Positions 647 to 28,655 of a stretch of DNA of 30,635 nt are shown in pieces (position 1 is the first letter of the stretch; each line of letters starts with the position of its first letter). The translations under genes were made by a program, and so were the position numbers. Source of the DNA: a virus; IMG/VR virus record IMGVR_UViG_3300009418_000072, positions 1 to 30,635 of that record; one strand, written 5' to 3'. The notes under the pieces are model-generated. The model saw nothing but the letters and a program-made list of their open reading frames with translations. It was not told the origin of the DNA and did not search any database.

Positions 647-3600
647 ATGCCTTTTTTACAAAACGATACTTACTGTAGCGGAGGAAGTGTACAGTTAGGA
701 AGCTTCTGGCAACCTACTGTATTCAAATTTGATACAAGCTCTTTCTATAACTGGGAGCAGGATAATGAGCCTATCTATGATTTAGAAGATAGAACAGGCT
801 ATCTTTGGGAGAAGGCGGGGTTTCCTGCATCCTCTTTAGAGAATACTGGCGTTACTTTAGTAGTTTCTGGCACAGCTTCTGGGGCTCCTGCCGCAGTACC
901 AACACATGGAAATATTTATACTAGTGTTTCTGCTGCTATAGAAGCTCTTCCTGATGTACTTAGGTTTCCAACAAAGATTGAGGTTGCTATTTATAGTTCA
1001 GATGTTAGTTCCGCTACCAATCCTAGGGGTACTTTGGGTAATCTTAATTTACAAAATATTAAGTTTGCAAATAATGGATGTTTAGAAATTGTTAATAGGG
1101 TATTCGCTCGTCCCCTGAGTCAGTCCATAGGGATAGATAATACTTTAATTAAAGCTATATCTACTAAAAATATTACACAGGTTTCATCTTTAGACACCAG
1201 CAATACGCTTGCTGATGCTTCTGCTGTGAGTGTATATAGGTCTATTTATGACATGGCAAAGTGGAATACTATGAACAGAGTATTCCTTCAAAAGCCAGAA
1301 TTTAACGGCACTACTGCACAAACAAATATTCTTTCCGTTGGGGTAGATCATACTGCTCTGATTAGTAGTGCAGAAAATACTTTTAATATTACACCTTATG
1401 GTTCGGTAAATGATGGAACTGTTGGAGCTTACGATGTTTCTGTTACTCATACTGTTAGTGCACTTGAAATTTCTAGAGATAATCCTGTAGTAGACCAACA
1501 CGCTATTGGTTTAATGTATGGAAACTTTTTAGATAAGATTAAAGTTGAAAACTGTAATGGTCCTATTTATATTAGAAACTTTTGTGTAGATGGAGGAGAT
1601 GATAACGGTGCTGCTAGTGCTATACATACTAAAGAAATCGGAATAGAGATCAATAATTCTAATGTTGTTCTTGAAAACTGTGCGGCTATGCGCTGTAATA
1701 AGGCAGGCATTGAACTTAATAATTCTAAAGTTATTCTAAATAGAGGAGTTGTAGCCTATAGAAACTATGAATTTTCTGGGGCAAGTACTTCTGCCAGAAA
1801 TATTAATAACGATACCCCAGGACTTAGGGCAAATAATAGCTATGTAATTGTAAGCTCTACTGATGAGAAAAATACCGTCCAAGGTAGAGACACTATTCTA
1901 TCTTTTTCTCAAAATGCAATCGGTATAGAACTTAATAACTCTGTACTTACAGGAGGACTTAATAGAGGGGTAGATTCTAGCGGAGGACTTCCTGTATTTA
2001 GTGTAAATAGCACCAATTCAAATAACAAGATGCTTTATCTCCAAGCCTTTAATAATACTAAGGCTGGGATTGTTGCAAATAATTCTCTTATTGATGTAAA
2101 AGCTAGACTTTCTATATTCCAAAATCTAGAAGGCTGTATTTTAATTAACTCTTGTGCTAAATTAAGAGAAGCAAAGATTGAAATAAATCAAAATATTGGA
2201 TTATCTTTACATAATTCTAAGGTTAGATATAACTCTGATTTGTGGCCTGCTTCAGGAACAAATAGCGCACTTGGAACTCAGCTATATTTTAATCTAAATG
2301 GACAACACCTTTCTTGCGAAAATTCAGAATTTCTTCCAACTCTTGCTGCTTCTGCAAATCATCACGGAAGTTTAGATACTAGTACACTTTTTGGAATGCC
2401 TAATCTTTATGGTCTTCTTCAATTTACTAAATCTCATGGAGGTGCAAAAAATGGAGCTGGTTCAAAGATTTCCCTTCCATCAATCTCACTTAAAAATAAT
2501 TCTAAAGCTGATTTCGTTCATTGTAGAATTGATACTGAAACTGGCGGTGGCTTTTCCATTCCAACTGGTGAAGCTGTTTTCGGTGCTGGAATATCCGTGG
2601 ATAATGGGTCTTCTGCTAAGTTCAATGGATCTAAAACAGGTACTACTATTTTACTTGGACCTGCTGGGGCTAAAAGAAATTTGGCTGGGATGTATGTGAA
2701 TAATAATTCTAATATATCTTTTGCTGGTCCTACAATTCTTGGGCAATGTGGAGTAAATGTATTAGCTGATAATAATTCCAAAGTATTATTTTCTCCTCAT
2801 ACAAACTTATTAGGAAATTATGATCCTAGTTCTTGGCAATTAAGTGATACAGGAAATCATACATCTGTCGAACTGCATTCTACTAGATCTTGTCTTGTAG
2901 CTGATCATGGTTCTAAGATTGCTATGGAGGATCTTGGAGATTACCATGAGCACTGGTCTGATGATATTCTACATACTTTAGTTAGTGGTGCAGCAGGAGC
3001 AGAGCTAGGGGACTATAATGCAAAGAATCCTACTGGATTGTCTAGCATAACTACTAGTGGCTATGTACAATTTTATCCAAACCCCCAACAGCAAAACAGC
3101 AACTTTGATGATGCTGTTGATGGAAATTCAACGCATACACTAGGAACAGTAGCGAATACTGCAACTTACTTAGTAAATCCTGAAACAGGAACCACTGCAA
3201 ATCATTCAACCTATTCACTAGGAGGAACTTGTGTCCGCGCTTTAAGAGGGAGTGAAGTAAAAGTAAAAAATGTTCATTTCCCTGCTGGATGGTTAAATCC
3301 CTCTGGTATCGTTTATGATGTGAGTGACCTTTGTAGTAGACTATACATTTGGAATATTGCTGATGATTCTGAATTAAACGCTTCATACTGCTCTGTTAGT
3401 GCGTCTTGGCCCGCCAGCGCGGTTTATCACGGACCTAGTTCTGTATATTCTAGCGGAACTTATCTTATAGCAAGTGGAGCACCTAGCTCCACCCCAGACA
3501 CCTCTTCTTTAAGTATTTTAGATTCTTTCGGCAATGGGACTAGCGGTTTGGGAAATAACACTTATGGAAAAAGTACTTTTGATAATAGAGGACCGTTTAG

Positions 3601-4104: not shown

Positions 4105-6603
4105 ATGCCACACGATGTAACGCCAACTACTACTCATGTTTTTACGGACCCTGTTAGATATTTTAAATCTAATGATCCTTATTATTGGGAAGTTGATAAT
4201 ATTCCACTAAAACAGCTTCAAGAAAACTGTCTATACTTAAAAGATGCTCTAACTCCTGGCATATCGTCTACAATCCATCCTAATGGGATTAAAGGAGAAG
4301 TTGACCGTACTGATTTGGGAGAGTTAAGACCTCACTTCCTAGGAAATGATAGAAAGCTTAATGTTCATCCTGGCAGGTATATGGCTAGAGTTAATGATGC
4401 TTATAAAAAGCAAAGACTTCAAGAACTTCGCTGGATTAAAGATGGTTCTGGGAAATATATAAGCGATGCTTTACAAACCTCTGGGGCTATTTCTACTATC
4501 TTAGATGGTGCGTTAAAAGGTACAAGTGTATTTAATTTTAATGGTCTTGATGATAGAATTAGGGTTTGGGCTCAACTTGATCCTCTTAATGCCCAGGCAA
4601 GTATTGCTACTTCTGGCTCTGGTAGAGCAGGATCTTCTCCTCCTACTTCTCTAGGAAGCTCTTTGTATCCTAAAGCTTGGCCTTTACTTTTTAGTGTTCC
4701 GTTTAATGATAATTTTAATTTAGGAGGAGTAATTTCCTATATTAATTTTAATTTTATTCAAGAACTATCAATGAACTTAATTCGTCATTGGAGGGGGGTA
4801 GCGAGAACTGCTGTAGTGGATATTCCTAATACCCTAACTGTAGATATCCCAGACTTTGATGCTAACGATTTCTTTTACATTGCTGAAGATGGAACTAAAA
4901 CATACCCTACTGCTCCTGCTTTTAGAATTGATATGGTTTTTGTTTATACAAAGCCTGTAGATGATGATAGTACTACGATTAATACTTTCGATTCTGGAGG
5001 GAATCCAACAACCATAACTGCACCAACTTTAGGTATAGTTAAGGGAGCAGGATTGGGTGCTAACTTTAGTTCTGGAGGTAGCAAAAGATCTCTTGATGTT
5101 GCTGGGCTTGACGATGATGCTCCTTTACAAGATACCGCAGGCAATACTTTAATGGCAGCTAATGTAAAAGATGCTGATAGCACTACAAACGGTTTCCTAG
5201 CAGGACCATTTACTAATAGCGAAGTACATGGATCTTTTCCTTCTCCAGAGGATTTAATGAATTTATCTCCAAACTTAATGGAGAATTTAGAGAGTACGGA
5301 TCTTCAACTTATTGGACAAAGTATACTTCCTATTTGCTATGTTTTAGTTCCCAGCACTGGAACTATAAACGCAGCTTCTCAGGTAGTTTTAACAAATGCT
5401 AATCTTTTAGATATTCGTCCATTCCTTCGTACAGCAGAACTTGCTTTCAATGAAAGAGCAGGAATCGCAGCCGCAGTCCCTCAACTGTCTTTTGCAAATC
5501 CTGCTGTAGGAGAGATTCAATTAAAGGATGAAGTTCAAAGAGTTCATGATAAACTCAACGCCGATATAACTACCGCTATTACTGGGGATATCGCTACTAA
5601 CCCTAGAAGTATTGCAAAAGGTATTATTTGGGGAGGACTATTGTATGGACCAGAAGGTGCATTGTTTAAATTAAAGCAAGGAACTGGAGACATTGCAAGC
5701 TGTTTCGAAGGAGGGGTTGAATCAGGAGGACCATCAGAAGCGTTAAAGCAGATTATTGGTTTAGAGTTTGCTGATGCAAACTGTTCAATGCAGATTCCTG
5801 TTTTTCCTAGTTGGGATTTTCCAAAGTGGGCAGAAACTAAAGCTGATCGAGGTAAGTTTGCTCCAGACTGGATTCATGAAAGATATATGGGAGCTTATAA
5901 AAATACATGGACATCTGCATCTTTAGGATTTTATGGAATTACTAGAGATGCTGTTTTCGGGGGATCTAATTCAGATATTGGATTTACTCACGGAGGTTTT
6001 GGGCCAGGGGCGCGGCCTTTAGTTATAAGGTATTGTAGAAAAGAGATTACTATTACGGATATCCCAGATCATATTAGAGATATTCAAATTTTAACAAATT
6101 ATGTTAATTGTCTACCAATTTCAGAAGAAGGAGGGGATGATCAAAGTGATGCTGAAGACAAGCAGGCGTTTCAGCATATGCGAGGAGTTAGTACTAGTAA
6201 ATCTCAAATTTTTGAAAGACAGCTAAATCCTAATTTATCTACAAATTCAAGATCTTGTAATATTAGGATTACTTCTTACTTCCCAGGAGTAGGAATGAGA
6301 GAGGGTGTTGGTACTGCTGCGGTCACATCTCGTAGGGCTAATCCATCGGATTTCTTAGCTCATATTGCTTTTAGTGGAGATATATCCCCTGGTGATCCCG
6401 ATGTTGGTGCTAATGTTGGGCTTTGTATGTATCCAACAGTAGAGTTTGATATTGTTGGATATCCTGAATCTAGTGTTAATCCAGATCAAAATAATTATGG
6501 AATTTCTATAGCAAATAAAACAATTACTGAACTTGATCCTAATAACTTTTCTATTGCTGCTGAAAATACCCAGGACATACATTCTCAACTAAAAGCTAGA
6601 TAA
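4105..6603 (+). CDS. Large tail or baseplate structural protein with WExDNxP N-terminal module
   Basis: The 832-residue protein starts two bases after the beta-helix gene, with AGGAAAAATT as a ribosome binding site. Residues 26-48 contain a Tyr-Trp-Glu-x-Asp-Asn-x-Pro-Leu segment followed by a Leu/Tyr-rich helix, matching residues 33-56 of the preceding gene product. This looks like a shared docking module. The rest is soluble, mixed alpha/beta, without membrane segments. The segment near residue 650 (RYCRKEITITDIPDHIRD) looks like a structured beta-rich domain. The gene overlaps the next one by a TAATG stop-start. Position among tail genes suggests a baseplate or fibre-connector protein. The family beyond the N-terminal motif was not recognised. 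Confidence 0.6.
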   Translation: MPHDVTPTTTHVFTDPVRYFKSNDPYYWEVDNIPLKQLQENCLYLKDALTPGISSTIHPNGIKGEVDRTDLGELRPHFLGNDRKLNVHPGRYMARVNDAYKKQRLQELRWIKDGSGKYISDALQTSGAISTILDGALKGTSVFNFNGLDDRIRVWAQLDPLNAQASIATSGSGRAGSSPPTSLGSSLYPKAWPLLFSVPFNDNFNLGGVISYINFNFIQELSMNLIRHWRGVARTAVVDIPNTLTVDIPDFDANDFFYIAEDGTKTYPTAPAFRIDMVFVYTKPVDDDSTTINTFDSGGNPTTITAPTLGIVKGAGLGANFSSGGSKRSLDVAGLDDDAPLQDTAGNTLMAANVKDADSTTNGFLAGPFTNSEVHGSFPSPEDLMNLSPNLMENLESTDLQLIGQSILPICYVLVPSTGTINAASQVVLTNANLLDIRPFLRTAELAFNERAGIAAAVPQLSFANPAVGEIQLKDEVQRVHDKLNADITTAITGDIATNPRSIAKGIIWGGLLYGPEGALFKLKQGTGDIASCFEGGVESGGPSEALKQIIGLEFADANCSMQIPVFPSWDFPKWAETKADRGKFAPDWIHERYMGAYKNTWTSASLGFYGITRDAVFGGSNSDIGFTHGGFGPGARPLVIRYCRKEITITDIPDHIRDIQILTNYVNCLPISEEGGDDQSDAEDKQAFQHMRGVSTSKSQIFERQLNPNLSTNSRSCNIRITSYFPGVGMREGVGTAAVTSRRANPSDFLAHIAFSGDISPGDPDVGANVGLCMYPTVEFDIVGYPESSVNPDQNNYGISIANKTITELDPNNFSIAAENTQDIHSQLKAR

Positions 6604-10085: not shown

Positions 10086-10498
10086 ATTTAGTTGATATTT
10101 TACAAATCCTTTCTGAAGCTTCTGCCAAAGTAACTACCCCAAAGACTGCTTCTAAAGTGGTCAAGTCTAGAAAAGGTAGAGTAAAGGTTTATAAATCTAT
10201 TAAAGATGCTTTATCTCAAGGAAGCTACGGACAAATTTTCTCAACAGAAGGTGCTGGTAGGCTTTATGTAATTAGCAAGCCTAAGTGGGGAAAGAAAAGT
10301 ACTGCGGGAGGAAATCAAAAGATTGCAAAAGGGTTTACCCCTGGAGCTGCAACTCCTTCTGCTAAATGGGATAGTATTAAAGCTCATGCTGTAAGAACCC
10401 TTCTCAGGCATGGAAAGGCTAAGTCTAAGAGACTAACTCAAAAATACACTACTGGATCTGAAGGAAAAAAAGAGGAAAAAACAAATGTTGCTGACTGA
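10082..10498 (+). CDS. Basic small protein, putative prohead core component
   Basis: The 138-residue product is strongly basic (many Lys, Arg and Ser), with an N-terminal hydrophobic helix, MNLVDILQILSEAS, carrying an L-S-E site after residue 12 that fits the T4-type maturation protease. T4 gp68, a basic core protein of similar length, occupies the same position before gene 21, but no sequence match can be claimed. The gene overlaps the previous one by ATGA and the next by 14 bases, so it belongs to the same transcript as the protease. It may bind DNA inside the head after its leader is removed. Confidence 0.5.
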   Translation: MNLVDILQILSEASAKVTTPKTASKVVKSRKGRVKVYKSIKDALSQGSYGQIFSTEGAGRLYVISKPKWGKKSTAGGNQKIAKGFTPGAATPSAKWDSIKAHAVRTLLRHGKAKSKRLTQKYTTGSEGKKEEKTNVAD

Positions 10499-11648
10499 TG
10501 TTCAAATTTTAGATAAAATTCATATTCTAGAAGAGTCTAAATCTAAAGGTACAATGAAGATTCGTGGAATATTCCAAAGAGCAGACGAAGCGAATAACAA
10601 TAAGAGAGTGTACCCTGGTTTACTTCTTACTAGAGAAATGACCAAGCTTACTGAAAATATTAAAGGAAGAAGGCTTATGGGGGAACTAGATCACCCTACC
10701 AATGATTCGGTAAAGCTTTCTAATGTTTCTCATCTTATTACGAATCTAAATATGAAGGGTAATGAAATGGTTGGCGAGGCAGAACTTCTTAATACTCCTG
10801 CTGGCCTAACTGCTCAAGCCCTTATTAGAGGAGGAGTTAGTATTGGGATTTCTTCAAGAGGAATGGGAACTTTATCAGAAGGAGAAAATGGAACCAAAGT
10901 CGTCAATGAAGACTTTAAGCTTATTACTTTTGATCTTGTTGCCGATCCTTCTACCAGGGGGGCTTACCCATCTATGTGTGAATCAACTGAGGCGAAAGCG
11001 ATTGTTGAAGAGACTATGGATAAAGCTGTCAAGGAAAAAGTTTTCTTAACTCTTCTTAAGAATAAGATTAATGAGAAAAAGGAATCACCTAGGGAAGCCC
11101 ATAGAGCTTGGAAACAAGAACAAGACGATAAGAATAAGAAAGACCAAAAAGCAACCCAAGCAGCTATGAAAGCACATCTCGCTTCGCAAAAGAAAAAGAG
11201 TGGGGTTACCCGAACAGAGGAAGCACAGACCCCAGCCCAAAGGCAAGAATTGATTAGACAGGCTGCTATCGCCACAAGAAAAAGAGAGTTAGAAGCTAGT
11301 AAAGCGTCCAATAAAGACGCACTGAAACCTCAGACTAAGAGATCTTCTGAAGAAGGTACTTACAAGGTAAGAGAAACTTTTACTAACCTTTTCATTAAAA
11401 AAGTAAGAGAGATGAGTAGATCTCACCGTGATGATCCCATTATAGATGTTAAGGATAAAGGAAGGTTCAATGAGCCTACCCCTGAACAATTAGAAAGAGC
11501 AGCCAAAAGGCTAAAAGCAAGAAAAGACAAGGATGCGAAGGCTGCGAAGGCTGCCGCTGATGCAGATGAAAAAGATAAAGCAGATGAAAAAGAGGGGGAT
11601 CTTAACCCCAGAATTCAAAAAGCAGCTACTTGGAGAAGAAAAGGTTAG
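10485..11648 (+). CDS. 21: T4 gp21-type prohead maturation protease with long charged C-terminal extension
   Basis: Residues about 22-165 match the T4 gp21 protease family: MKIRGIFQRADEANNNKRVY, then GELDHP with the catalytic His at 70, the segment GGVSIGISSRGMG with the nucleophilic Ser (Ser119 or Ser123), and LVADPS near residue 151. This serine protease cuts scaffold, core and major capsid proteins after (I/L)xE during head maturation. An I-L-E site at residues 14-16 could be a self-cleavage site. The protein is 387 residues, whereas T4 gp21 is about 210. The extra roughly 200 residues are almost entirely charged, Lys/Glu/Ala-rich helix. A ribosome binding site GAGGAAAA precedes the start, which overlaps the upstream gene. 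Confidence 0.88.
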   Translation: MLLTDVQILDKIHILEESKSKGTMKIRGIFQRADEANNNKRVYPGLLLTREMTKLTENIKGRRLMGELDHPTNDSVKLSNVSHLITNLNMKGNEMVGEAELLNTPAGLTAQALIRGGVSIGISSRGMGTLSEGENGTKVVNEDFKLITFDLVADPSTRGAYPSMCESTEAKAIVEETMDKAVKEKVFLTLLKNKINEKKESPREAHRAWKQEQDDKNKKDQKATQAAMKAHLASQKKKSGVTRTEEAQTPAQRQELIRQAAIATRKRELEASKASNKDALKPQTKRSSEEGTYKVRETFTNLFIKKVREMSRSHRDDPIIDVKDKGRFNEPTPEQLERAAKRLKARKDKDAKAAKAAADADEKDKADEKEGDLNPRIQKAATWRRKG

Positions 11649-12351: not shown

Positions 12352-13848
12352 ATGTATACAGTTGATAATGCTCTCGTTGAAAAGTGGGAGCCCGTCCTTG
12401 ATGGAATCAAGGAAGATTATACTAAAAGGGTAACAGCACAACTGCTAGAAAACCAAGCAAAGACCATCATAGCCGAGCGTTTAGACGAGGCTGGTGCTCC
12501 TACTACTGTAGGTAAACTTGGTGCTTTCCAGAAGTTTGCTTTCCCCCTTGTTCGTCGGGTTTACCCGAAACTAATCGCAAATAACATTTGCGGTGTCCAG
12601 CCTATGCAAGGCCCTGTAAGCCAAATTTTCTATCTCGGTCATAGTCGTGACTATGGTGGAACTGAGCAGTCCATCTACAGTAAGTATCAGCTTACTTACA
12701 GAGGATTCGTCACTAGTGGCGTATTTAACGCTGCTAATATTGATCTTGATGTCAGTGGCATCGCGTCACTCGGATCCGGCGATCCTGCGGCACCTGATAC
12801 CAGTGGCATTCTTACGACTGGTTCTGGTGCGCCTTCTACCACTTTTGGTGGTCAGATTGCTGCCTTCCCTGATAGTACGAAGATTTGGGGTGTAAATGTT
12901 TCTGCTGGTGAAAACCTTACTGGTACTGGTATTCCAGAGATTAACTTCCATATCGAGCAACAGCCTGTCGTGGCTAGAACTCGTAAAATGCGAGCACTCT
13001 GGACTCTAGAAGCTGCCCAAGACCTCCGTGCATACCATAACATGGATCTTGAGCGTGAGCTTACTGATCTTCTTGGAAAAGAACTTCAACTAGAGATTGA
13101 CCGTGAACTTATTGAAGACCTTCGTATGATTGCTTATGATGTTACGGGAACCTTTGGTGGTTTCAATCGCACCATGCTTGATTCAGGTGGTTCCAATAAC
13201 TTCCCCACGGATGGTGATGGTATGATCCCCGCTGATTGGCAGTACGAGTTTACTAGTGCTACCAACCCTGCTGGCGGTGATCGTAATGTGTTCCTAGTTG
13301 ATTTTACTTCTAGTGCTCTTTTTGGAGGAGCCCAGCATGTAGGCCATGTCTACGCTAACCTTCTTGCGGCAATCAACCTTGCTTCTCAAGATATCTATAA
13401 GACCACTATGCGTGGCCCAGGTACTTGGCTTGTTTGTGCGCCTATCGTTGCTTCTCTTCTTGAGTCTGCTGCGAAGCTTGAAGGTGGTATTGCTAGTAGT
13501 GATGGACCCTCCAATATGGGTGGGAACATTGAGTACAAAGGTAAGTTTGCAGGTAAGTATGATCTCTATATTGATCCTCTTTATCCTGAAGACGAAATCC
13601 TTATGGGTTATAAAGGTGCGAACGCTATGGACGCAGGTTATGTGTACGCTCCCTATATTCCGTTACAGCAACTTCCTACCATTGTAGATCCTGATACATT
13701 CCAGCCGAGAAAAGGTATTCTTACCCGTTACGGTAAGGCTGCTATTACTCCTGAGTCTCGTTTCTACCGTATAATTAGAATCGTTGGTCCAATTTCCAAC
13801 TTCTTGTTCCAGCCGTTCGGCTTGAACACTGCTACGGTTCCTGGCTGA
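12352..13848 (+). CDS. 23: gp23-type major capsid protein
   Basis: The 498-residue product matches T4-type major capsid proteins: a helical N-terminal leader, then LGAFQKFAFPLVRRVYPKL at about 56-74, a GVQPMQGP segment near residue 81, and a C-terminus with LTRYGKAAITPESRFYRI and SNFLFQPFG. The protease would remove the leader, probably after L-D-E at residues 44-46 (followed by Ala-Gly), comparable with the 65-residue leader of T4 gp23. Strong ribosome binding site AAAAGGAGAAATTA. Arginine codons are mostly CGT here, whereas neighbouring genes use AGA, which suggests selection for high expression. A strong terminator follows. No gp24 vertex homologue is seen nearby. Confidence 0.93.
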   Translation: MYTVDNALVEKWEPVLDGIKEDYTKRVTAQLLENQAKTIIAERLDEAGAPTTVGKLGAFQKFAFPLVRRVYPKLIANNICGVQPMQGPVSQIFYLGHSRDYGGTEQSIYSKYQLTYRGFVTSGVFNAANIDLDVSGIASLGSGDPAAPDTSGILTTGSGAPSTTFGGQIAAFPDSTKIWGVNVSAGENLTGTGIPEINFHIEQQPVVARTRKMRALWTLEAAQDLRAYHNMDLERELTDLLGKELQLEIDRELIEDLRMIAYDVTGTFGGFNRTMLDSGGSNNFPTDGDGMIPADWQYEFTSATNPAGGDRNVFLVDFTSSALFGGAQHVGHVYANLLAAINLASQDIYKTTMRGPGTWLVCAPIVASLLESAAKLEGGIASSDGPSNMGGNIEYKGKFAGKYDLYIDPLYPEDEILMGYKGANAMDAGYVYAPYIPLQQLPTIVDPDTFQPRKGILTRYGKAAITPESRFYRIIRIVGPISNFLFQPFGLNTATVPG

Positions 13849-16595: not shown

Positions 16596-18710
16596 ATGCC
16601 AAATTTTGTAAGCCCAGGTATTTATGTTCTGGAAAAAGATATTTCCGAATATGCTCCAACAGTAAACTCTTCTGTTGTTGGTATTGTAGGTTTTGCTACA
16701 AAAGGAAAAACTAACACAGCTACTCTCATTACTTCTCCTGAAAATCTAGTAAATACCTTTGGAAGACCTTCTGAAAATATTACTGGTCAAGGTCTAGAAG
16801 GTGCTATTGAAGTTTTAGAAACAACTAACCAAGTATATTTCCTTAGAGCTGCTGTGGATGCATCTGCTAATGACGCATCTGCTCAGGTTCCCCTTGGCTC
16901 CTGCCCTGCTATGGAGGTTTCCAATGTTAGTGGTGGAGTTACAGGCTCTGGGAGTCTTTACTTTAAGATTTCTGTTAAAAATAATACTGGTACGGAGCAA
17001 TATACAGTAACAAACCCAAAAAGCTTTGCTGTTCCAGTTGGGACTGTACCCGCTGCGATGGGGGCTTCTGGACAAGCAACTGCTTTGAAAAAGATTATAG
17101 GTGGAGCATTAGACTCTGATAAGGTTGGAGTTACTGTTGCCTCTAATGGAACTGCTCATTTTATTGTAGGATCCTTTGCAGGATCAGGAGCTTCTATTTC
17201 TGTATCAGCGTATAATGAACCAACATACACTACAGGAACCTATGTTCTTCTGGCTACAAGTGGTGATGGTTTAGTTGCTGGTGCTGGAGCGGTCACCTCG
17301 CTGGCTTCTTCTTTAACAATTTACGGATCGACCTTCTACAACAAGGTAGCTAGTGGGATTGGTTATTTAGCTGAAACTATACACCCAGGGACTGGGTATA
17401 ATCTCTCAACTCTTGCAGATGGAAGTGTAAGAGGAAACTCAGTTGAGGTTGAAAATCTAGGTGGAGCTAATACTCTTATTACTGTAAACGATGAAGGAGT
17501 AGCTAAAGAAACTTTTAAAACCTCTTTCCTTGATGGAAATGGAACCTATATTGAAGATGTTATTAATACTGGAGAAACTAACCTAACCTCAGATATCATT
17601 AAAGGGAATCTCGTTTCTGGAGCGGGTTCTTCTGATTTTACTAATACTAAGTTGACCGCATTCGATAGCTATCTTTCCTCTATGGGTGTTATTGATCTAA
17701 GTGGAACTCAAGGAGGGGATGGGCTTGCCATTAGTGTTGATGGAGCTAGATTTATTAAACCTGTTGAAGGAAGTGTTAGTTTAGCTGGAGGTACTGATGG
17801 AACAGGATCCGATTCAGAGAATAATACTGCTTTAGTCGGCCTCGCAAACCTTGACCCAAAAACTGGGATGCAAGCATTAGATGATGATGCTCTTAATATT
17901 TCAGTTGCAATGGTTCCTGGGGTATACGATCAGACTGTTCAAGATAATCTTGTAACCTTAGCAGAGAGTACACAAAACTTCTTAGCTCTTGTTTCCCCTC
18001 CAGAAGGTGTAGGGACTGCCCAAGACGCTATTGATTGGTCTAATGGAGGTTCCGAAAGTAGGACTGCCTCTTTAAACAGTTCTTATGCTGCTATTTACTG
18101 GCCTCATGTTAAAGTCTTTAGCGTTTTTGATGGTAAGGATCGCTTCTATGATCCCGCTATCTTTGCTGCAAGACAAATGGCATTTACTGATAATAGTGCA
18201 GAAACATGGTTCGCTCCAGCAGGTTTTGTAAGAGGAAAGCTTAGTAAGCCAAGTGAGGTGGAAGTCAAACTGAACCAGGGTGATAGAGATTCCATGTATA
18301 GTGGAGGAAATGTAATTAATCCTATTGTTAATTTCCCTCAACAAGGAATTACAATCTTTGGTCAAAGAACTTCACAAAGAGATGCTAGTGCTCTTGATAG
18401 AGTAAATATTAGAAGAATGATGATTCTTATTAGAAAACAAATTCTTGCTTCAACTACAGCCTTTGTATTTGAACCAAATGATCCTATCACTTGGCAAAGA
18501 ATTGAAACTCTAATTAATCCTATGATGGATGATATCAAACAAAGAAGAGGAATTACGGAATTCAGAGTAGTTTGTGATGAAACCACAAATACTTCAGTCC
18601 GTATTGATAGAAACGAACTCTGGTGTAAGGTTCTTATCAAGCCAACCAAGACCGCAGAGATTCTAATCTTTGAAATTAACCTTACTAACCAGTCAGCTAA
18701 ACTAGGCTAA
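16596..18710 (+). CDS. 18: gp18-type contractile tail sheath protein
   Basis: The 704-residue product starts MPNFVSPGIYVLEKDISEYA, the typical start of T4-type sheath proteins (SPGIYV.E.D.S), followed by VVGIVGFATKGKTNTA. The C-terminal third has the conserved sheath core: helices with SALDRVNIRRMMILIRKQIL at about 597-616, a FEPNDPITWQRIE segment, and the closing NELWCKVLIKPTKTAEIL and strand. The central region, Gly/Ser/Thr rich (about residues 90-400), is the variable outer domain. Length is slightly more than T4 gp18 (659). The tail tube gene follows. The ribosome binding site AGGATAAA precedes the start. Confidence 0.95.
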   Translation: MPNFVSPGIYVLEKDISEYAPTVNSSVVGIVGFATKGKTNTATLITSPENLVNTFGRPSENITGQGLEGAIEVLETTNQVYFLRAAVDASANDASAQVPLGSCPAMEVSNVSGGVTGSGSLYFKISVKNNTGTEQYTVTNPKSFAVPVGTVPAAMGASGQATALKKIIGGALDSDKVGVTVASNGTAHFIVGSFAGSGASISVSAYNEPTYTTGTYVLLATSGDGLVAGAGAVTSLASSLTIYGSTFYNKVASGIGYLAETIHPGTGYNLSTLADGSVRGNSVEVENLGGANTLITVNDEGVAKETFKTSFLDGNGTYIEDVINTGETNLTSDIIKGNLVSGAGSSDFTNTKLTAFDSYLSSMGVIDLSGTQGGDGLAISVDGARFIKPVEGSVSLAGGTDGTGSDSENNTALVGLANLDPKTGMQALDDDALNISVAMVPGVYDQTVQDNLVTLAESTQNFLALVSPPEGVGTAQDAIDWSNGGSESRTASLNSSYAAIYWPHVKVFSVFDGKDRFYDPAIFAARQMAFTDNSAETWFAPAGFVRGKLSKPSEVEVKLNQGDRDSMYSGGNVINPIVNFPQQGITIFGQRTSQRDASALDRVNIRRMMILIRKQILASTTAFVFEPNDPITWQRIETLINPMMDDIKQRRGITEFRVVCDETTNTSVRIDRNELWCKVLIKPTKTAEILIFEINLTNQSAKLG

Positions 18711-22791: not shown

Positions 22792-23108
22792 AGCACCAAC
22801 TTAAGTTTCTTTCCAAAGAGAATGAGCTTAACAAGGTTCTCAAACAACAAAAGAGAACCCAAGAGAGATGTAAGCTTTTATTCACCTCCCTGTGGGATAG
22901 TCCCAGCGACACCCTCATCTCCAAACTTAAGGAGAGGTACGGAGAGAGTGATAGAGGAGAGCCTGTTTACATTATAAACAGTTTTTATATGCCTCATTCC
23001 TTTGTGATTTTTTCTACCACTAAGATTCCCCACCTTATTAAGCTTGGGGACCAAGATGATATTAGTGAAGATTACCTTCCTTCGATCTACAGGAAACTAG
23101 GACTTTAG
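22788..23108 (+). CDS. Unknown 106-residue protein
   Basis: The start overlaps the previous stop (ATGA), so it is coupled. The product has a basic helical N-terminus (about residues 1-33, many Lys, Gln and Arg) and a mixed alpha/beta C-terminal part with VYIINSFYMPHSFVIFSTTK, then an acidic stretch ending DYLPSIYRKLGL. No family was recognised. Its 3' end overlaps by 12 bases the convergent gp55-like sigma factor gene, and neither gene has room for a terminator. In T4, late transcription also needs the small co-activator gp33; a role of that kind would fit the neighbourhood, but nothing in the sequence supports it. Confidence 0.55.
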   Translation: MKHQLKFLSKENELNKVLKQQKRTQERCKLLFTSLWDSPSDTLISKLKERYGESDRGEPVYIINSFYMPHSFVIFSTTKIPHLIKLGDQDDISEDYLPSIYRKLGL

Positions 23109-23438
23109 TTTTTGGTTTTCTATATAGTCGTTAATCTTTTCCGTGTACTTCTTGTTCTTACTGTAAATCAGTTTTAAATTGTTTACAATAACTGTGGTAA
23201 AATAATTAAACGCACTACCATTTTCGGGATTAAAATTCTTCAAAGTTTTTAGGATAAGCACATAGCAGTCTTGTTTAGCGTCTTCCATATCAACCTTGAA
23301 ATTAAATGATGTAAGTATGTTAGTGATTAATATATCAAACATTCCTACTAACTCATCCTCATGTTCCCGAGGGTTTTGTTTGTACAGCGATATCAATTCT
23401 TCAAATCTTTTATTATCTATGTAATTTTTATTGCTCAT
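23097..23438 (-). CDS. 55: gp55-like late sigma factor (short form)
   Basis: The 113-residue minus-strand product has a sigma region 2 pattern. After a helical N-terminus, residues about 51-90 read MEDAKQDCYVLILKTLKNFN then PENGSAFNYFTTVIVNN, which follows the sigma-70 region 2.2 pattern (D..Q.G...L.KA...FDP..G..F..Y....I) and also T4 gp55. There is no region 4, as in gp55. T4 gp55 is 185 residues and has a C-terminal sliding-clamp motif; here the protein ends soon after region 2 (ENQKLKS), with no obvious clamp motif. It would direct host RNA polymerase to TATA-type late promoters. No ribosome binding site is seen, and its ATG is 16 bases from that of the divergent polymerase gene. Confidence 0.7.
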   Translation of the reverse strand: MSNKNYIDNKRFEELISLYKQNPREHEDELVGMFDILITNILTSFNFKVDMEDAKQDCYVLILKTLKNFNPENGSAFNYFTTVIVNNLKLIYSKNKKYTEKINDYIENQKLKS

Positions 23439-23454: not shown

Positions 23455-24474
23455 ATGAGTACCCTAGAAGATCTTTATTCTGAGCATAAGTCTTGTGGAG
23501 ACAATGATTTATGTAATGGCTGTAGTATTCTGAACAAATCTAAACCTGTTCACGCAGTCATGGATTACGAGAAAAAGGCTCAATGCGATGTACTTTTTCT
23601 TTCAGATTCCCTTACCCATAAGTTTGGAGATACAAAAGCATTCTCCAACCAAGAGTATGATCTTATTAAAGAATGTGCTAAAGGTGAGTTTGAAACTGCT
23701 GCCTCTGTAAAGTGTCCTTCAGTTAGAGAATTAGATATGTCCCCAGCGAATATGAAAATTTGCAGGCAGCACTTAGAGGATACGCTTGATAAGATTCAGC
23801 CTAAGTTAGTTTTCCCTTGTGGTAACTTGGCTATGAAGATGCTTATTAAGAAAAGCGGTATAACTAATAAGCGAGGAAGGTCGTATACCTTTGAGACGGA
23901 AAAGGGGCATGAGGTAGTTGTAGTTCCTATCTTTCATCCCTTTTCTGTTCTTCAAGAGCCTAAAAATAGATATCTCTTTGAGACAGATATTCGGAATGCT
24001 TACGAGAAGTATATCCAACACAAGACCTGTGAGAATAAGTTTACCTACAATGTTGTAGATACTAAAGAAAAGCTTAGAGATCTCGCCAACAAATTAAGTA
24101 GTATTACTGAACCTGTTGCTTGTGATATTGAAACTACTGGTCTTGATTTTAGAAGAGATAAGATTATGACCATAGCCTTCTCTACTGATGAGGGTAATTG
24201 GGTTGTACCTTGTGAGCATAAAGATACCCCTTTTACAGAACCAGATCAGAAAGCTGCCTTGTGGTTTAGCATTAGAAAGATTTTAGAAAATGAGAAAAGT
24301 AGGAAAATCTTTCATAATGCTAAGTTTGATCTGAAGTTCCTAATTAACTATGGAATTTATCCTAGTAACATTTGGGATACAAAAATCCTTCATCATATCC
24401 TAAATGAGAATACACCTAAAGGCTTGATGGATTTAGTTAAACTTTATTTTTCTGATGAGTTGGAGAATCTGTAA
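23455..24474 (+). CDS. DNA polymerase family A, part 1: UDG-like Fe-S domain and most of the 3'-5' exonuclease
   Basis: The ATG at 23455 is preferred; in-frame TTG 23431 and ATG 23437 would overlap the divergent sigma gene. The product is 339 residues. Residues 1-190 resemble family 4 uracil-DNA glycosylase: Cys20-x-x-Cys23, Cys87 (SVKCP) and Cys103 (MKIC) are placed like its iron-sulphur ligands, with PKLVFPCGNLAMKML and a HPF motif (His161). The usual GEAPG catalytic loop is replaced by LSDSLTH, so glycosylase activity is doubtful. Residues 215-339 are a DEDD proofreading exonuclease: Asp224 and Glu226 (CDIETTGLDF), Asp292 (FHNAKFDLKF). The domain stops before its third motif, which is encoded in the next frame. 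The same UDG-exonuclease order occurs in SPO1-type polymerases. Confidence 0.85.
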   Translation: MSTLEDLYSEHKSCGDNDLCNGCSILNKSKPVHAVMDYEKKAQCDVLFLSDSLTHKFGDTKAFSNQEYDLIKECAKGEFETAASVKCPSVRELDMSPANMKICRQHLEDTLDKIQPKLVFPCGNLAMKMLIKKSGITNKRGRSYTFETEKGHEVVVVPIFHPFSVLQEPKNRYLFETDIRNAYEKYIQHKTCENKFTYNVVDTKEKLRDLANKLSSITEPVACDIETTGLDFRRDKIMTIAFSTDEGNWVVPCEHKDTPFTEPDQKAALWFSIRKILENEKSRKIFHNAKFDLKFLINYGIYPSNIWDTKILHHILNENTPKGLMDLVKLYFSDELENL

Positions 24475-24950
24475 TGCTTACCATCCTTAATCCTAAAACT
24501 TATAACTGGGCTGAGATGCCTTTGTCTGATTGCTACGAAGGGAATGCAGCGGATAGTTACTTTACTCTGAAGCTTTATCATTTAATTATGGAGAAGTTGG
24601 GAGGGTTAGGTAATACAAAACTTCTTGAGCAGATTATTTCTCCTGTTCTTCCTGTATTTGCTGAGATGGAATTTGAAGGTTTGGATGTAGATATGAAACA
24701 GTTATCGGTTGTGGGAAAGCAACTAAAAGATACAAACATAGATGTTACCGACAGCCTGTATGAATACAAGCAGGTATCTAATACTCAAAACCTATCCAGC
24801 AATACTGATCTTATTGATATCTTGTATACGGATGAAAAGGGTTTTGCACTATACCCCCCAGACATGACACCAAAAGGTAAGCCTTCCGTGTCTGCACCTA
24901 CTTTAAAACTTTTGTTGGACCAAATTAATGCAGAGCTGATAAAGAGATGA
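24474..24950 (+). CDS. DNA polymerase family A, part 2: end of exonuclease and start of polymerase domain
   Basis: This 158-residue frame begins in the stop codon of part 1 (TAATG), one base back in frame. Its first 40 residues complete the exonuclease: CYEGNAADSYFTLKLY contains the third motif with Asp27, the position of Asp501 in E. coli DNA polymerase I. Residues 44-90 (QIISPVLPVFAEMEFEGLDV) match the helix joining exonuclease to polymerase in family A enzymes, and TPKGKPSVSAPTLKLLLDQ matches the polymerase I thumb-entry segment TKKGxPSTxxxxLxxL. It cannot work as a polymerase or exonuclease on its own. It ends in ATGA, overlapping part 3. Confidence 0.82.
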   Translation: MLTILNPKTYNWAEMPLSDCYEGNAADSYFTLKLYHLIMEKLGGLGNTKLLEQIISPVLPVFAEMEFEGLDVDMKQLSVVGKQLKDTNIDVTDSLYEYKQVSNTQNLSSNTDLIDILYTDEKGFALYPPDMTPKGKPSVSAPTLKLLLDQINAELIKR

Positions 24951-26065
24951 GCAAGAAGTGGCAATATAGAGATGAAAGTAAGGACATTAGTAAGTCCGTA
25001 CTTGAGAATAAATCTACTCAGGAGTTGGAGGATGCTAGAGACTTTATTAGTGGATTGCTAGGTCTTAGAAAATTAGAGAAATTAGTTAAGACTTATATAA
25101 ATGGTACATCTGCTGCGGTTGAGTACAATGAGAAGGAGAAAGTTTTCGTTGATTATAGGATTGATGGAACTTCCACGGGAAGACTCAGTTGTGCTGCATA
25201 TACCGCAGGGCAAAAGATGGGTGTTAGTTTTCACACTCTTCCTAGAGAGACGGAGAACAATATTAGAAGTATTTTCGTTGCTCCTCCCAATCATGCCTTT
25301 ATAACTGTAGACTATTCTGCTATGGAGTTGCGTGTACTTGCCCATATTGCCAGGGAAGGCAGGATGCAGCAAGCATTCTGTTCGGGAAAGGATCTTCACA
25401 CATATACTGCTAGGTTGCTTTTTGATAAGGAAGTTATCAGTAAGGAGGAGAGGCAGATTGCAAAAACTGTATCTTTCCTTATTGTTTATGGTGGAGGTGC
25501 CTATAATTTAGCAGAAACTATGTCGATCCCTCTCAAGAGGGCAGAGAAAATCATTAATAACTACAAGAATGTCTACCCAGGCGTTTTTGAGTTCATGGAG
25601 TTTGTAAATGAATTTATTAAAACTAATAAGTATGCCTATACTATTTTTGGTCGCAGGAGGAATCTTCCTAATGTTGATTCACGGCATCGTGCTGTGGTCA
25701 ATCGGGCATATAGGCAAGGGCTTAACTTTACGATTCAAAGCTCTTCTAGTGATATTTTATTATGTTCTCTTCTTGGCATTTATAATGAGTTTAAAACTCT
25801 TGGTATGAAGTCCAAGATTGTTAGCACAGTTCATGATAGTATTGAACTTATTGCTCCATATGATGAGATAAAAGATGCGTGTGATATTATATATAATCAG
25901 ATGGTAAACTATCCTTTAATGAAGGAAAAGTTTAATATCCATTTTGATATTCCGTTTGCAATAGAAACTATTGTAGGAAAAAGTTTTGGAGATGGAGTTG
26001 AGGTTAAATATGAAGATGGAAAAGCAATTAACATTTCGGATGTTAGAAAATATCTTGAAGTATAG
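24947..26065 (+). CDS. DNA polymerase family A, part 3: palm and fingers
   Basis: The 372-residue product carries the full polymerase catalytic core: STGRLS at 76-81, motif A VDYSAMELR with Asp122, the O-helix RQIAKTVSFLIVYGGG with Arg169, Lys173, Phe177 and Tyr181 (equivalent to Arg754, Lys758, Phe762 and Tyr766 of E. coli polymerase I), and motif C TVHDSIE with His296-Asp297. Phe at the 762 position is typical of enzymes that exclude dideoxynucleotides. It starts by ATGA overlap, again one base back from part 2, without an obvious ribosome binding site. All catalytic residues are intact, so the split is not simple decay. Its first 50 residues are thumb sequence continuing from part 2. Confidence 0.9.
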   Translation: MSKKWQYRDESKDISKSVLENKSTQELEDARDFISGLLGLRKLEKLVKTYINGTSAAVEYNEKEKVFVDYRIDGTSTGRLSCAAYTAGQKMGVSFHTLPRETENNIRSIFVAPPNHAFITVDYSAMELRVLAHIAREGRMQQAFCSGKDLHTYTARLLFDKEVISKEERQIAKTVSFLIVYGGGAYNLAETMSIPLKRAEKIINNYKNVYPGVFEFMEFVNEFIKTNKYAYTIFGRRRNLPNVDSRHRAVVNRAYRQGLNFTIQSSSSDILLCSLLGIYNEFKTLGMKSKIVSTVHDSIELIAPYDEIKDACDIIYNQMVNYPLMKEKFNIHFDIPFAIETIVGKSFGDGVEVKYEDGKAINISDVRKYLEV

Positions 26066-26068
26066 TAC

Positions 26069-27070
26069 ATGAAGACTCTAGTTTTAGGAGATCTTCATAT
26101 CCATAATACGGATACAGAGTTAGTGAGGGAACAGATAAAAACTGTTCTCAATATTGTTGACAAAGAAGATCCTGACGATATAGTATTGTTGGGCGATGTA
26201 ATTGATAAAAGGAAACCTTCGCCCGAATGCTTACTCCGAGTACGCTATCTTTTCACCGAACTGGAGGATAGAGGTAAAACTACTTATGTGCTAAGAGGTA
26301 ATCACGATTCCAGCACAAAAGCAGATGATGGCATTGCTGCTCTTAGCCTATTCAGTAGTGATCTAACAAAAATAATAGTACATACAACCAAGATTGGCAA
26401 CAGGGTATATGCTCCGCATTATGAAGATGATAGAAAAATTGAAAAGCTTTTGCACTCTGCCTCTAAAGATGATCTTCTTTTTGGTCATTTCGGTTATCAT
26501 GGGTGTATGGATTCTGCTGGGATCTGTGATTTTAATATTAATCCTAACATTTTTCGCTGTAGGGCTATCCTTGGGCATATTCATAGATTTAGTGAAAAGG
26601 GAAACATCACTATTCTTGGTACACCGTATACGACGAACTACACAGAATCAGGAAAAAAGAACTACTACGCAATCATTAAAGAGGACGAAGAAGAACTAGA
26701 GATAACTTACCATCCTATCACCCAGGGACCGAGGTATCTGGTCCTCTGCTATTCAGAGCTTGAGGACAATAAAAAACTTATTAATGACGACTCTTATTTC
26801 ACTTTTCTGAGAGTCTTAGTAGATCAGCTTTCAGATGCTAACACGGCAAATCTAGCCTCTGAATTACTTGAAAAATATAATATAGAGAGGCTGGATATAA
26901 AGTTCAAGCCTTTGATTGATGACCCCAAATCCATCAGTTCCTATGAAACTCAGAGGGATCTTTTTAGTATAAATGAGGTTATCATTGAGGATTATGTAGA
27001 TAATAACACAACTTCTTTGGACAAAGAATCCATTATGGAGGGGTATAGGATACTTAGGCATGAAAATTAA
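26069..27070 (+). CDS. 47: gp47/SbcD/Mre11-type recombination nuclease
   Basis: The 333-residue product has all metallophosphoesterase motifs in order: Asp8 and His10 (GDLHIH), Asp43 (LGDVIDKR), Asn78-His79-Asp80 (RGNHD), His140 (FGHF), and His170 with His172 (GHIH). The C-terminal 100 residues are the capping and partner-binding region, with no further motifs. Together with the gp46-like ATPase encoded next, it forms the nuclease that resects DNA ends for recombination-dependent replication in T4. Length equals T4 gp47 (339). The start is 3 bases after the polymerase stop and has no ribosome binding site. It overlaps the gp46-like gene by 11 bases. Confidence 0.93.
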   Translation: MKTLVLGDLHIHNTDTELVREQIKTVLNIVDKEDPDDIVLLGDVIDKRKPSPECLLRVRYLFTELEDRGKTTYVLRGNHDSSTKADDGIAALSLFSSDLTKIIVHTTKIGNRVYAPHYEDDRKIEKLLHSASKDDLLFGHFGYHGCMDSAGICDFNINPNIFRCRAILGHIHRFSEKGNITILGTPYTTNYTESGKKNYYAIIKEDEEELEITYHPITQGPRYLVLCYSELEDNKKLINDDSYFTFLRVLVDQLSDANTANLASELLEKYNIERLDIKFKPLIDDPKSISSYETQRDLFSINEVIIEDYVDNNTTSLDKESIMEGYRILRHEN

Positions 27071-28655
27071 CAAAATTTCTATACAAAATTTCTACTCGAT
27101 AAAAAATATAGAACTAGAACTTGATACCTATAGTGGTTTAGTTCTGATTAAGGGTAAAAATCTTGATACTGGTGGATCTAATGGGTCTGGTAAAAGTGCC
27201 ATTATTGAAGCAGTTTGTTGGGGGCTTACGGGCAAAACAATTCGGAAGTCCACAGAGGATGCCTTAATTAATTTTAAATCTAAAAGAAATTGTGTTGTAG
27301 AGATTACACTTAATGATGATTATGTAATTCGTAGATCTAAAAAGCCTACCAAGTTAGAGTTTTTTAAAGGAAAAGAGGCTCTGACCAAGGAAGGGGTTAT
27401 TGAGACTCAAAAAACGATTGATGCTACCTTTAAAATAAGCTACAAGACATTAATGGTGTCCATGTTCTTTGGACAGCATAACAACTTTAGCTTTCTAGAC
27501 GCTTCCCCAGACGATAAGCGGATAATCATTAGAAATTTTCTAAATCTAGATGAAGTCTTCTCAATGAGGGATAAGATTAGAAATTTTAAATCTAATTTTA
27601 ATCAGCAGGCTAAGACTAGCGAAGCGTTAATTAAAGAACACTCTTCTGGCTTAAAGGAACTTGAAGATAAAATTAGATCAATTAATGAAGATAAAGAAGA
27701 GTATAACTATTCTGAAGATTTCTCTGGGCTAACTTTAGAGAGTATTATTGCCACAGAAAACAAGAACAGAAACATAGATGAGAGTATTAAAAGTATTTCT
27801 TCTGACCTTTTTTCTATAGGAAAGGAGAAAGATCCCCTTGTTTATAAAATAACGAAAGGATCAGGAGAGTATTCAGACAGATGCGGAAGTTGTGGAAATA
27901 TAAAGGTGAAAGAAATCACCGAAAACGATATCGAGCATTGGGAAGGCGAGCTAACTAATTTAGAAAAGTACATAGCCCAGAAGGAAATAGAAATAGCTCT
28001 ATTACGAGAACAGAAGAGTAGTCTGAAGATTTCATCAGATGATTGGTCTAAGTTCAATGAATATAAGAATTTATGTGAAAAAGAGGCTCTGTTTTTGGAA
28101 ATGATAGATGATGTTCAGGATAAAATCTATATTGAGGAAGAAATAAAGAAAGACAGCATAAACCAGTACGAGGTGATGCGTTTCTGGGAAACTGCTTTCT
28201 CTGAAAAGGGTCTAATAAAATATGTTATTAGAAATGTACTACAATTCTTTAATGAAAAAAGTAATTATTATTTGTCCTATCTTACTGATAACAAGTACTT
28301 TATAGAATTTGATGAAGAATTAATCGAAAAAATTACAACAAATGGGGGTTTTATTCATTATATATCCTTATCGGGGGGAGAAAAAAGGAAGATCAATCTG
28401 GCAATTTTGCTTGCTATGAAAGATCTTCTTCACCTTACGGATAGCGAAGACTCTAATTTGTTGTTCTTCGATGAGGTTGCGGAAAATATTGATAAAGAGG
28501 GTATTGCTGGGCTGTACCAGCTGCTACAAGAAATTAAGAAAGATAAAACGATCTTCATAATAACTCATAATAAAGAATTGAAAACTCTGCTAGATTCTGT
28601 GCCTCGTATTTCTATTATGAAGCACAAAGGAACATCTACACTTAGTAGGAGATAA
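27060..28655 (+). CDS. 46: gp46/SbcC/Rad50-type recombination ATPase
   Basis: The 531-residue protein has Walker A GGSNGSGKS at 38-46, a Q-loop Gln139 (FFGQHNNF), coiled coil around residues 165-260 and 285-370, and between them a zinc-hook Cys275-x-x-Cys278 (RCGSCGN). It then has the ABC signature SLSGGEKRK at 436-444, Walker B LLFFDE with Asp471 and Glu472, and the H-loop His503 (IITHN). It would dimerise through the hook and drive the gp47-like nuclease. Length is close to T4 gp46 (560), with comparably short coiled coils. The start lies inside the gp47-like gene, with a GGAGGGG run about 14 bases upstream. Confidence 0.93.
   Translation: MKINKISIQNFYSIKNIELELDTYSGLVLIKGKNLDTGGSNGSGKSAIIEAVCWGLTGKTIRKSTEDALINFKSKRNCVVEITLNDDYVIRRSKKPTKLEFFKGKEALTKEGVIETQKTIDATFKISYKTLMVSMFFGQHNNFSFLDASPDDKRIIIRNFLNLDEVFSMRDKIRNFKSNFNQQAKTSEALIKEHSSGLKELEDKIRSINEDKEEYNYSEDFSGLTLESIIATENKNRNIDESIKSISSDLFSIGKEKDPLVYKITKGSGEYSDRCGSCGNIKVKEITENDIEHWEGELTNLEKYIAQKEIEIALLREQKSSLKISSDDWSKFNEYKNLCEKEALFLEMIDDVQDKIYIEEEIKKDSINQYEVMRFWETAFSEKGLIKYVIRNVLQFFNEKSNYYLSYLTDNKYFIEFDEELIEKITTNGGFIHYISLSGGEKRKINLAILLAMKDLLHLTDSEDSNLLFFDEVAENIDKEGIAGLYQLLQEIKKDKTIFIITHNKELKTLLDSVPRISIMKHKGTSTLSRR

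Follow-up and report, generated by a model that had tools for sequence, protein, structure and literature searches.

The window, that is, the whole 30,635-nt stretch of viral DNA that was analysed, encodes a family A DNA polymerase (PolA) in three overlapping reading frames, with the first break inside the 3'-5' exonuclease. The question raised by this locus is whether the enzyme is made as three separate polypeptides, or whether one chain is restored by frameshifting or splicing or was broken by errors in the sequence.

Three genes and two joins in the window

All three genes were located on the plus strand. The first, p1 (23455–24474; 339 aa), encodes a UDG-like N-terminal domain and the first two thirds of the exonuclease with the Exo I and Exo II motifs; an alternative upstream start, TTG at 23431, is possible. 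The second, p2 (24474–24950; 158 aa), carries the Exo III helix and the thumb helices H/H1/H2, and the third, p3 (24947–26065; 372 aa), carries thumb helix I, the palm and the fingers and represents the catalytic polymerase subunit. A TAATG stop/start overlap connects p1 with p2 (join 1, 24472–24476), and an ATGA overlap connects p2 with p3 (join 2, 24947–24950), both of them −1 frame steps. The division into three frames with these two overlaps, as given in the preliminary description, was confirmed. In a PHROG scan, p1, p2 and p3 aligned consecutively to the same family, phrog_17, at positions 482–785, 798–934 and 924–1242. An IMG/VR contig belonging to a different metagenome record (L002) was identical to the window over 6,722 nt, with zero mismatches and with both joins covered.

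No slippery heptamer had been noticed at either join in the preliminary description. A slippery-type heptamer, TTTAAAA, does occur in the p2 frame at 24902; a stop codon in the p3 frame, 22 nt ahead of the p2 stop, makes it unproductive.

Conserved breaks and inserted genes in the relatives

IMG/VR was scanned with p3, p2 and p1, and the p2-bearing loci collapsed to 82 distinct p2 sequences. About 80 distinct relatives, with 44–100% identity, had the same three genes and the same two breaks; related phages with identical breaks, a search for which had been proposed in the preliminary description, were thus found. In all 82 distinct sequences p2 started with ATG, nearly always with an in-frame stop codon nearby upstream. 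No cultured phage was closer than about 32% identity to p1 or p3 of the window, or to the fused p2p3 of the two-gene relatives described below.

Comparison of join 1 among the relatives demonstrated that it serves as a cargo insertion site. The TAATG form was present in 38 of them, the two genes abutted in one (L097), and an insert of 151–2403 nt was found in about 38, with all three frames represented among the insert lengths. Among the cargo were lipoprotein-like genes in antisense orientation, genes for glycosyltransferases and for a PD-(D/E)XK nuclease, thyX and glutamine synthetase, and the insert state changed at least 17 times on the three-gene tree. Of the 31 three-gene rows with an insert, 22 had an antisense CTATATATTA-like motif 2–3 nt ahead of the p2 start codon, versus none of the 45 insert-free ones. 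A near-identical 91-aa membrane-like protein was encoded at join 1 in L030 (gap 3247–3522) and L193 (gap 5005–5280), which belong to two distant branches; this suggests transfer or parallel insertion.

Join 2 was also variable. A GTG-N2-TAA-like overlap (p3 in frame +1) was present in 55 relatives and an ATGA overlap (frame +2) in 21; relatives that differ from the window at this join have GTGNNTAA in a different frame or an inserted gene. Whole genes, for a DUF6445 protein and a dNMP-kinase-like protein, were found there in L150 and L198.

These data bear on the ways in which one chain might be concealed behind the three frames. Programmed ribosomal frameshifting leading to one full-length polymerase would agree with the −1 steps at both window joins and with the heptamer at 24902. 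However, that heptamer runs into a stop before p3, inserts of 151–2403 nt, including antisense genes, separate p1 from p2 in relatives, and join 2 occurs in two frames and also with inserted genes. Neither a productive slippery site nor a constant frame relation, the marks of a programmed frameshift, was found, and this explanation is exceedingly improbable. Sequencing or assembly indels in one continuous gene are a still weaker candidate and can be practically dismissed: one relative, L053, is clearly indel-ridden, but the identical contig from another record spans both joins, and both breaks are alike at the codon level in the approximately 80 relatives. The variable and antisense inserts and the two frame relations at join 2 refuted frameshifting and indels alike.

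Splicing of the join 1 inserts at the RNA level (intron) or at the protein level (intein) would likewise restore a single chain, and phage polymerase genes with introns are known (PMC10580990). The insert-free members, however, retain the in-frame stop and the ATG, no match to Rfam intron families was found in seven loci (the window and six relatives, most with inserts), and what is inserted consists of ordinary genes, for example thyX, glutamine synthetase or a glycosyltransferase. The first two of these observations refuted a present-day intron, and splicing of either kind has about as negligible a likelihood as frameshifting. Among representative gap ORFs, no Pfam matches to homing endonucleases (HNH, GIY-YIG, LAGLIDADG) were detected, and a homing-endonuclease origin was rejected on this basis; a mobile element that was later lost may still have been the original cause of the cuts. 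Thus, of the four options offered in the preliminary description, the relatives removed frameshifting, indels and a present-day intron and supported the three-subunit enzyme. The split is real.

Several loci deviated from the general scheme. L053, L036 and L130 were considered as exceptions and rejected, since nothing but indels or an open frame on the antisense strand makes them look odd; L053, with many indels, and L036, with a broken p2, were uninformative. A difference of one base between L196 (5277–6122) and its near relatives places p2 and p3 in one frame; either break 2 may be reversible by re-fusion or the contig may contain an error.

Catalytic residues and their division among the three proteins

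In Pfam, p1 matched DNA_pol_A_exo1 (PF01612, 1e-22) and UDG (PF03167, 5e-7). Its UDG-like domain (residues 1–186; 23455–24012) resembled family-4 uracil-DNA glycosylases (4zbx, 1ui0), with a match of 5e-9 to 4zbx in the comparison with family-4 structures, and kept their four-Cys pattern: Cys20, Cys23, Cys87 and Cys103 were present in 73 of 73 scorable three-gene rows, in agreement with the family-4 Fe-S pattern. Unlike in the family-4 enzymes, catalytic motif A looked degenerate; the GEAPG-like position is presumably that occupied by LFLSDSLTHKFG in the window. The domain is probably not a glycosylase. At its C-terminus, p1 ended in ELENL* in the window and nearly always in ELE(N/S/D)L* in the relatives.

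No Pfam match was obtained for p2. A family profile built from ten p2 sequences matched Klenow (3.6e-8) over Exo III and the thumb, aligning to chain positions 164–294, or about residues 487–617; Klenow residue numbers were obtained with an offset of 323 in the matched chain, which agrees with the known active site. The search for the residues of a DEDDy exonuclease revealed all four metal-binding carboxylates, placed on the two proteins as the preliminary description had claimed: D224 and E226 of Exo I (24124–24132) and D292 of Exo II (24328–24330) on p1, and D27, corresponding to Asp501, in the Exo III motif GNAAD (24540–24554) on p2. All four were invariant across the break in the three-gene (76/76) and two-gene (13/13) rows. 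The Exo III tyrosine was absent; its position (Klenow Tyr497, G23 in p2) was occupied by Gly in all split enzymes (76/76 and 13/13) and by Tyr in most one-gene relatives. Judged by its residues, the exonuclease site is a DEDD site minus the Tyr, and as far as sampling shows, the Tyr was lost on the same stem on which the first cut was made. Because mutation of this Tyr in Klenow weakens the exonuclease without abolishing it, proofreading is probable, not certain; weakened by the Tyr loss, it may be weak or absent.

A dead exonuclease, with p1 retained as a UDG-like domain or scaffold and an active polymerase formed by p2 and p3, would be consistent with the Tyr-to-Gly replacement throughout the split enzymes, given that most one-gene relatives keep the Tyr. 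This reading of the three polypeptides is unlikely, though it deserves more weight than any of the single-chain explanations. Against it stand the four metal-binding carboxylates, invariant over 44–100% identity and across the break, the low median pairwise dN/dS of p1 (0.10), and the two-gene relatives, in which the UDG cysteines were lost and the exonuclease residues were nevertheless kept.

Structure models were obtained for two relatives in which adjacent pieces share a frame; they are single-chain stand-ins for the complex, not docked chains, and do not prove assembly. In L097, p1 and p2 share a frame and are separated by nothing more than a TAG, and the read-through chain was folded with the stop read as Gly. 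The AlphaFold model (33 rows) had a mean pLDDT of 78, with about 90 in the exonuclease core and the Exo III helix. In Foldseek it matched apPol, Klenow (1e-10 to 1e-9) and stand-alone DEDD exonucleases, the latter with TM scores of 0.73–0.74 by target length over approximately 225–230 columns. This match probably extends into p2, because the share of the exonuclease that p1 alone could fill is about 145 residues. The model of L196, in which one frame runs from p2 into the start of p3, matched Bst Pol I over 233 columns. Both models had low confidence at the junctions.

The third protein matched DNA_pol_A (PF00476, 2.3e-73) in Pfam as well as Klenow and Bst. In ten diverse relatives, D122, E127, R169, K173, F177, Y181, H296 and D297 of p3 were invariant, including the catalytic Asp122 of motif A (25310–25312) and Asp297 of motif C (25835–25837). 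Motifs A, B and C are intact, as had been stated in the preliminary description, and the catalytic Asp pair and the O-helix Arg, Lys, Phe and Tyr expected of family A are all present in p3. A polymerase domain on a single chain is usual for family A, although not strictly defining; here the thumb is shared by p2 and p3. Median pairwise dN/dS was 0.09 for p2 and 0.06 for p3, and together with the p1 value and the invariant Exo carboxylates this indicates that all three proteins are maintained under purifying selection.

Order of the cuts, known split enzymes and genomic setting

Gene states in deeper relatives were determined by a profile search of six-frame ORFs. One continuous gene was found at about 30% identity, including Bacillus phage phi18 and Caudoviricetes MW202455, and two genes (p1 and a fused p2p3), cut only inside the exonuclease, at 34–42% identity; three genes were present in everything closer than the two-gene relatives and in some deep branches. 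In an IQ-TREE analysis of 38 concatenated proteins, each state occupied one side of a branch with 100% bootstrap, and a quick tree of 56 rows agreed with this topology. Relatives with one continuous gene, which according to the preliminary description would speak against the split, therefore do exist, but only outside the split clade and at that low identity. In the two-gene clade (L208, L221, L223, L216, L218, L220 and L224–L227), thyX and glutamine synthetase genes were found inserted inside the split polymerase.

Break 1 was homologous in both split clades, with p1 ending in LMDLVKxxFPxELExF/L* and p2 starting with MLTVxxxxxxDWANMPL, followed later by GNAxD. It does lie within the exonuclease, as proposed earlier; the corresponding position of the one-gene enzymes is a loop, variable in length, that lies between Exo II and Exo III. 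The deepest two-gene member, L234, also has a stop/start overlap (gap −1), and this form may be ancestral for join 1. Break 2, which had been assigned to the thumb, was placed at the thumb tip. In enzymes encoded by one or two genes, this region is a compact turn. In the three-gene enzymes that were compared, p2 is extended at its C-terminus by an additional helix (24915–24947 in the window), which according to the junction alignment is absent from the other two types, and p3 begins with an arm of about 28 residues (24947–25030), mostly KWxxRDExKxISxSV, which is conserved and restricted to the three-gene clade. The simplest order suggested by these sequences is cut 1 followed by cut 2, because only the three-gene clade has the arms and the two-gene junction is compact like that of the one-gene enzymes. 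The reverse order, with three pieces first and re-fusion of p2 and p3 in the two-gene clade, draws on L196, where one base suffices for fusion. It would, however, cost one extra event on the tree, the two-gene junction is compact like that of the one-gene outgroup and lacks arms, and the basal two-gene enzymes have so far yielded no trace of three-gene arms at the p2/p3 junction; we consider this order improbable.

We therefore favour, as quite probable, a scenario in which the sole detected replicative polymerase of a T4-like marine myovirus lineage arose from an SPO1/phi18-type chain that was split stepwise into an obligate heterotrimer, the breaks later becoming cargo sites. The first cut would have been made in the surface loop that separates Exo II from Exo III and the second at the thumb tip, between helices H2 and I, both fissions being successive and inherited. 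The three proteins would be translated separately from one operon, with stop/start overlaps where no insert is present, and translation may be coupled at the joins. In the heterotrimer, the exonuclease site would be completed over the p1–p2 interface and the thumb over the p2–p3 interface, the new conserved terminal arms at join 2 possibly aiding reassembly; assembly of the pieces and polymerase activity are likely. Accessory genes would have been taken up later in the gaps. That the cuts are adaptive is a more speculative and, on balance, doubtful idea: with proofreading and the thumb put together from separate subunits, the phage might tune fidelity or processivity in the course of infection, the thumb-tip arms might form a docking element at a place comparable to that of the T7 thioredoxin-binding insert, and the breaks might act as tolerated cargo docks in the replication operon, also for antisense late genes that bring a promoter of their own beside the start codon of p2. 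The series of one, two and three genes makes it possible to test directly how an essential enzyme was split step by step, and the locus provides a natural template for split polymerases with an optional proofreading subunit.

Two-piece phage polymerases and reassembling "genes in pieces" are already known. The SPO1/phi18-type polymerase (phrog_17) has the same UDG-exo-pol domain order, but is encoded by one gene, keeps the Exo III Tyr and shows about 30% identity, whereas the window clade has separate genes and Gly. In the OM43 phages MEP401 and MEP402, a marine PolA is divided into two ORFs with a small gene between them, for which the authors suggest an intron; there, the cut lies within the polymerase domain and gives two pieces, exonuclease plus N-terminal polymerase and C-terminal polymerase (PMC10580990). 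The split gp43A/gp43B of Aeromonas phage 25 co-purify with polymerase activity, and the split NrdA of Aeh1 is active (PMC2988022). These cases (phages 25/44RR and Aeh1) resemble the present one in that a replication enzyme is made in separately translated, reassembling and working pieces, but they involve two pieces of a PolB or an RNR and go together with homing endonucleases or with an untranslated spacer (PMC2988022); neither was found here. Rhodothermus phage RM378, likewise a T4-like myovirus (130 kb) with a split polymerase, had been cited as a parallel in the preliminary description, which was misleading: its p024, annotated as DNA polymerase, has a family B exonuclease domain and its p092 the family B motifs DxxSLYPS and YxHTDS, so that whole domains reside on distant genes and the cut runs between them, not through the exonuclease. 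The open-licence papers and cultured-phage records searched contained neither a three-piece replicative polymerase nor one divided within the proofreading site. Another split PolA was observed in Weizmannia phage Youna2 (L161), with a 673-aa protein and a separate C-terminal piece that are divided by an unrelated ORF.

The virus encodes T4-like head protease, major head and tail-sheath proteins, and a gp47-like gene follows downstream; this structural module and the gp47-like gene accompany PolA in the window (12352–13848, 10485–11648, 16596–18710 and 26069–28655). Exactly one family A polymerase and no family B polymerase was found in each of nine long relatives of up to 130 kb. The split gene can serve as a marker: it identifies an abundant T4-like lineage of uncultured marine phages, which apparently replicates with PolA and not PolB. 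A 130,604-bp member of the lineage (L158, QCKN01000003.1) is a contig in the single-cell genome of Prochlorococcus sp. AG-409-P03, which gives only a hint of Prochlorococcus as the host; no psbA-family gene was found on this viral contig. A late-sigma-like (gp55-like) gene lies beside p1 on the minus strand (23097–23438). CTATAATA/CTATTATA/CTATATAT motifs occur directly upstream of gene starts in the window (22448, 22456, 23450, 19403 and 13920), and in insert-bearing relatives motifs of this type are also present upstream of the antisense inserts, 30 nt upstream of p2. They may be late promoters of the T4 kind, to which the gp55-like sigma gene would correspond.
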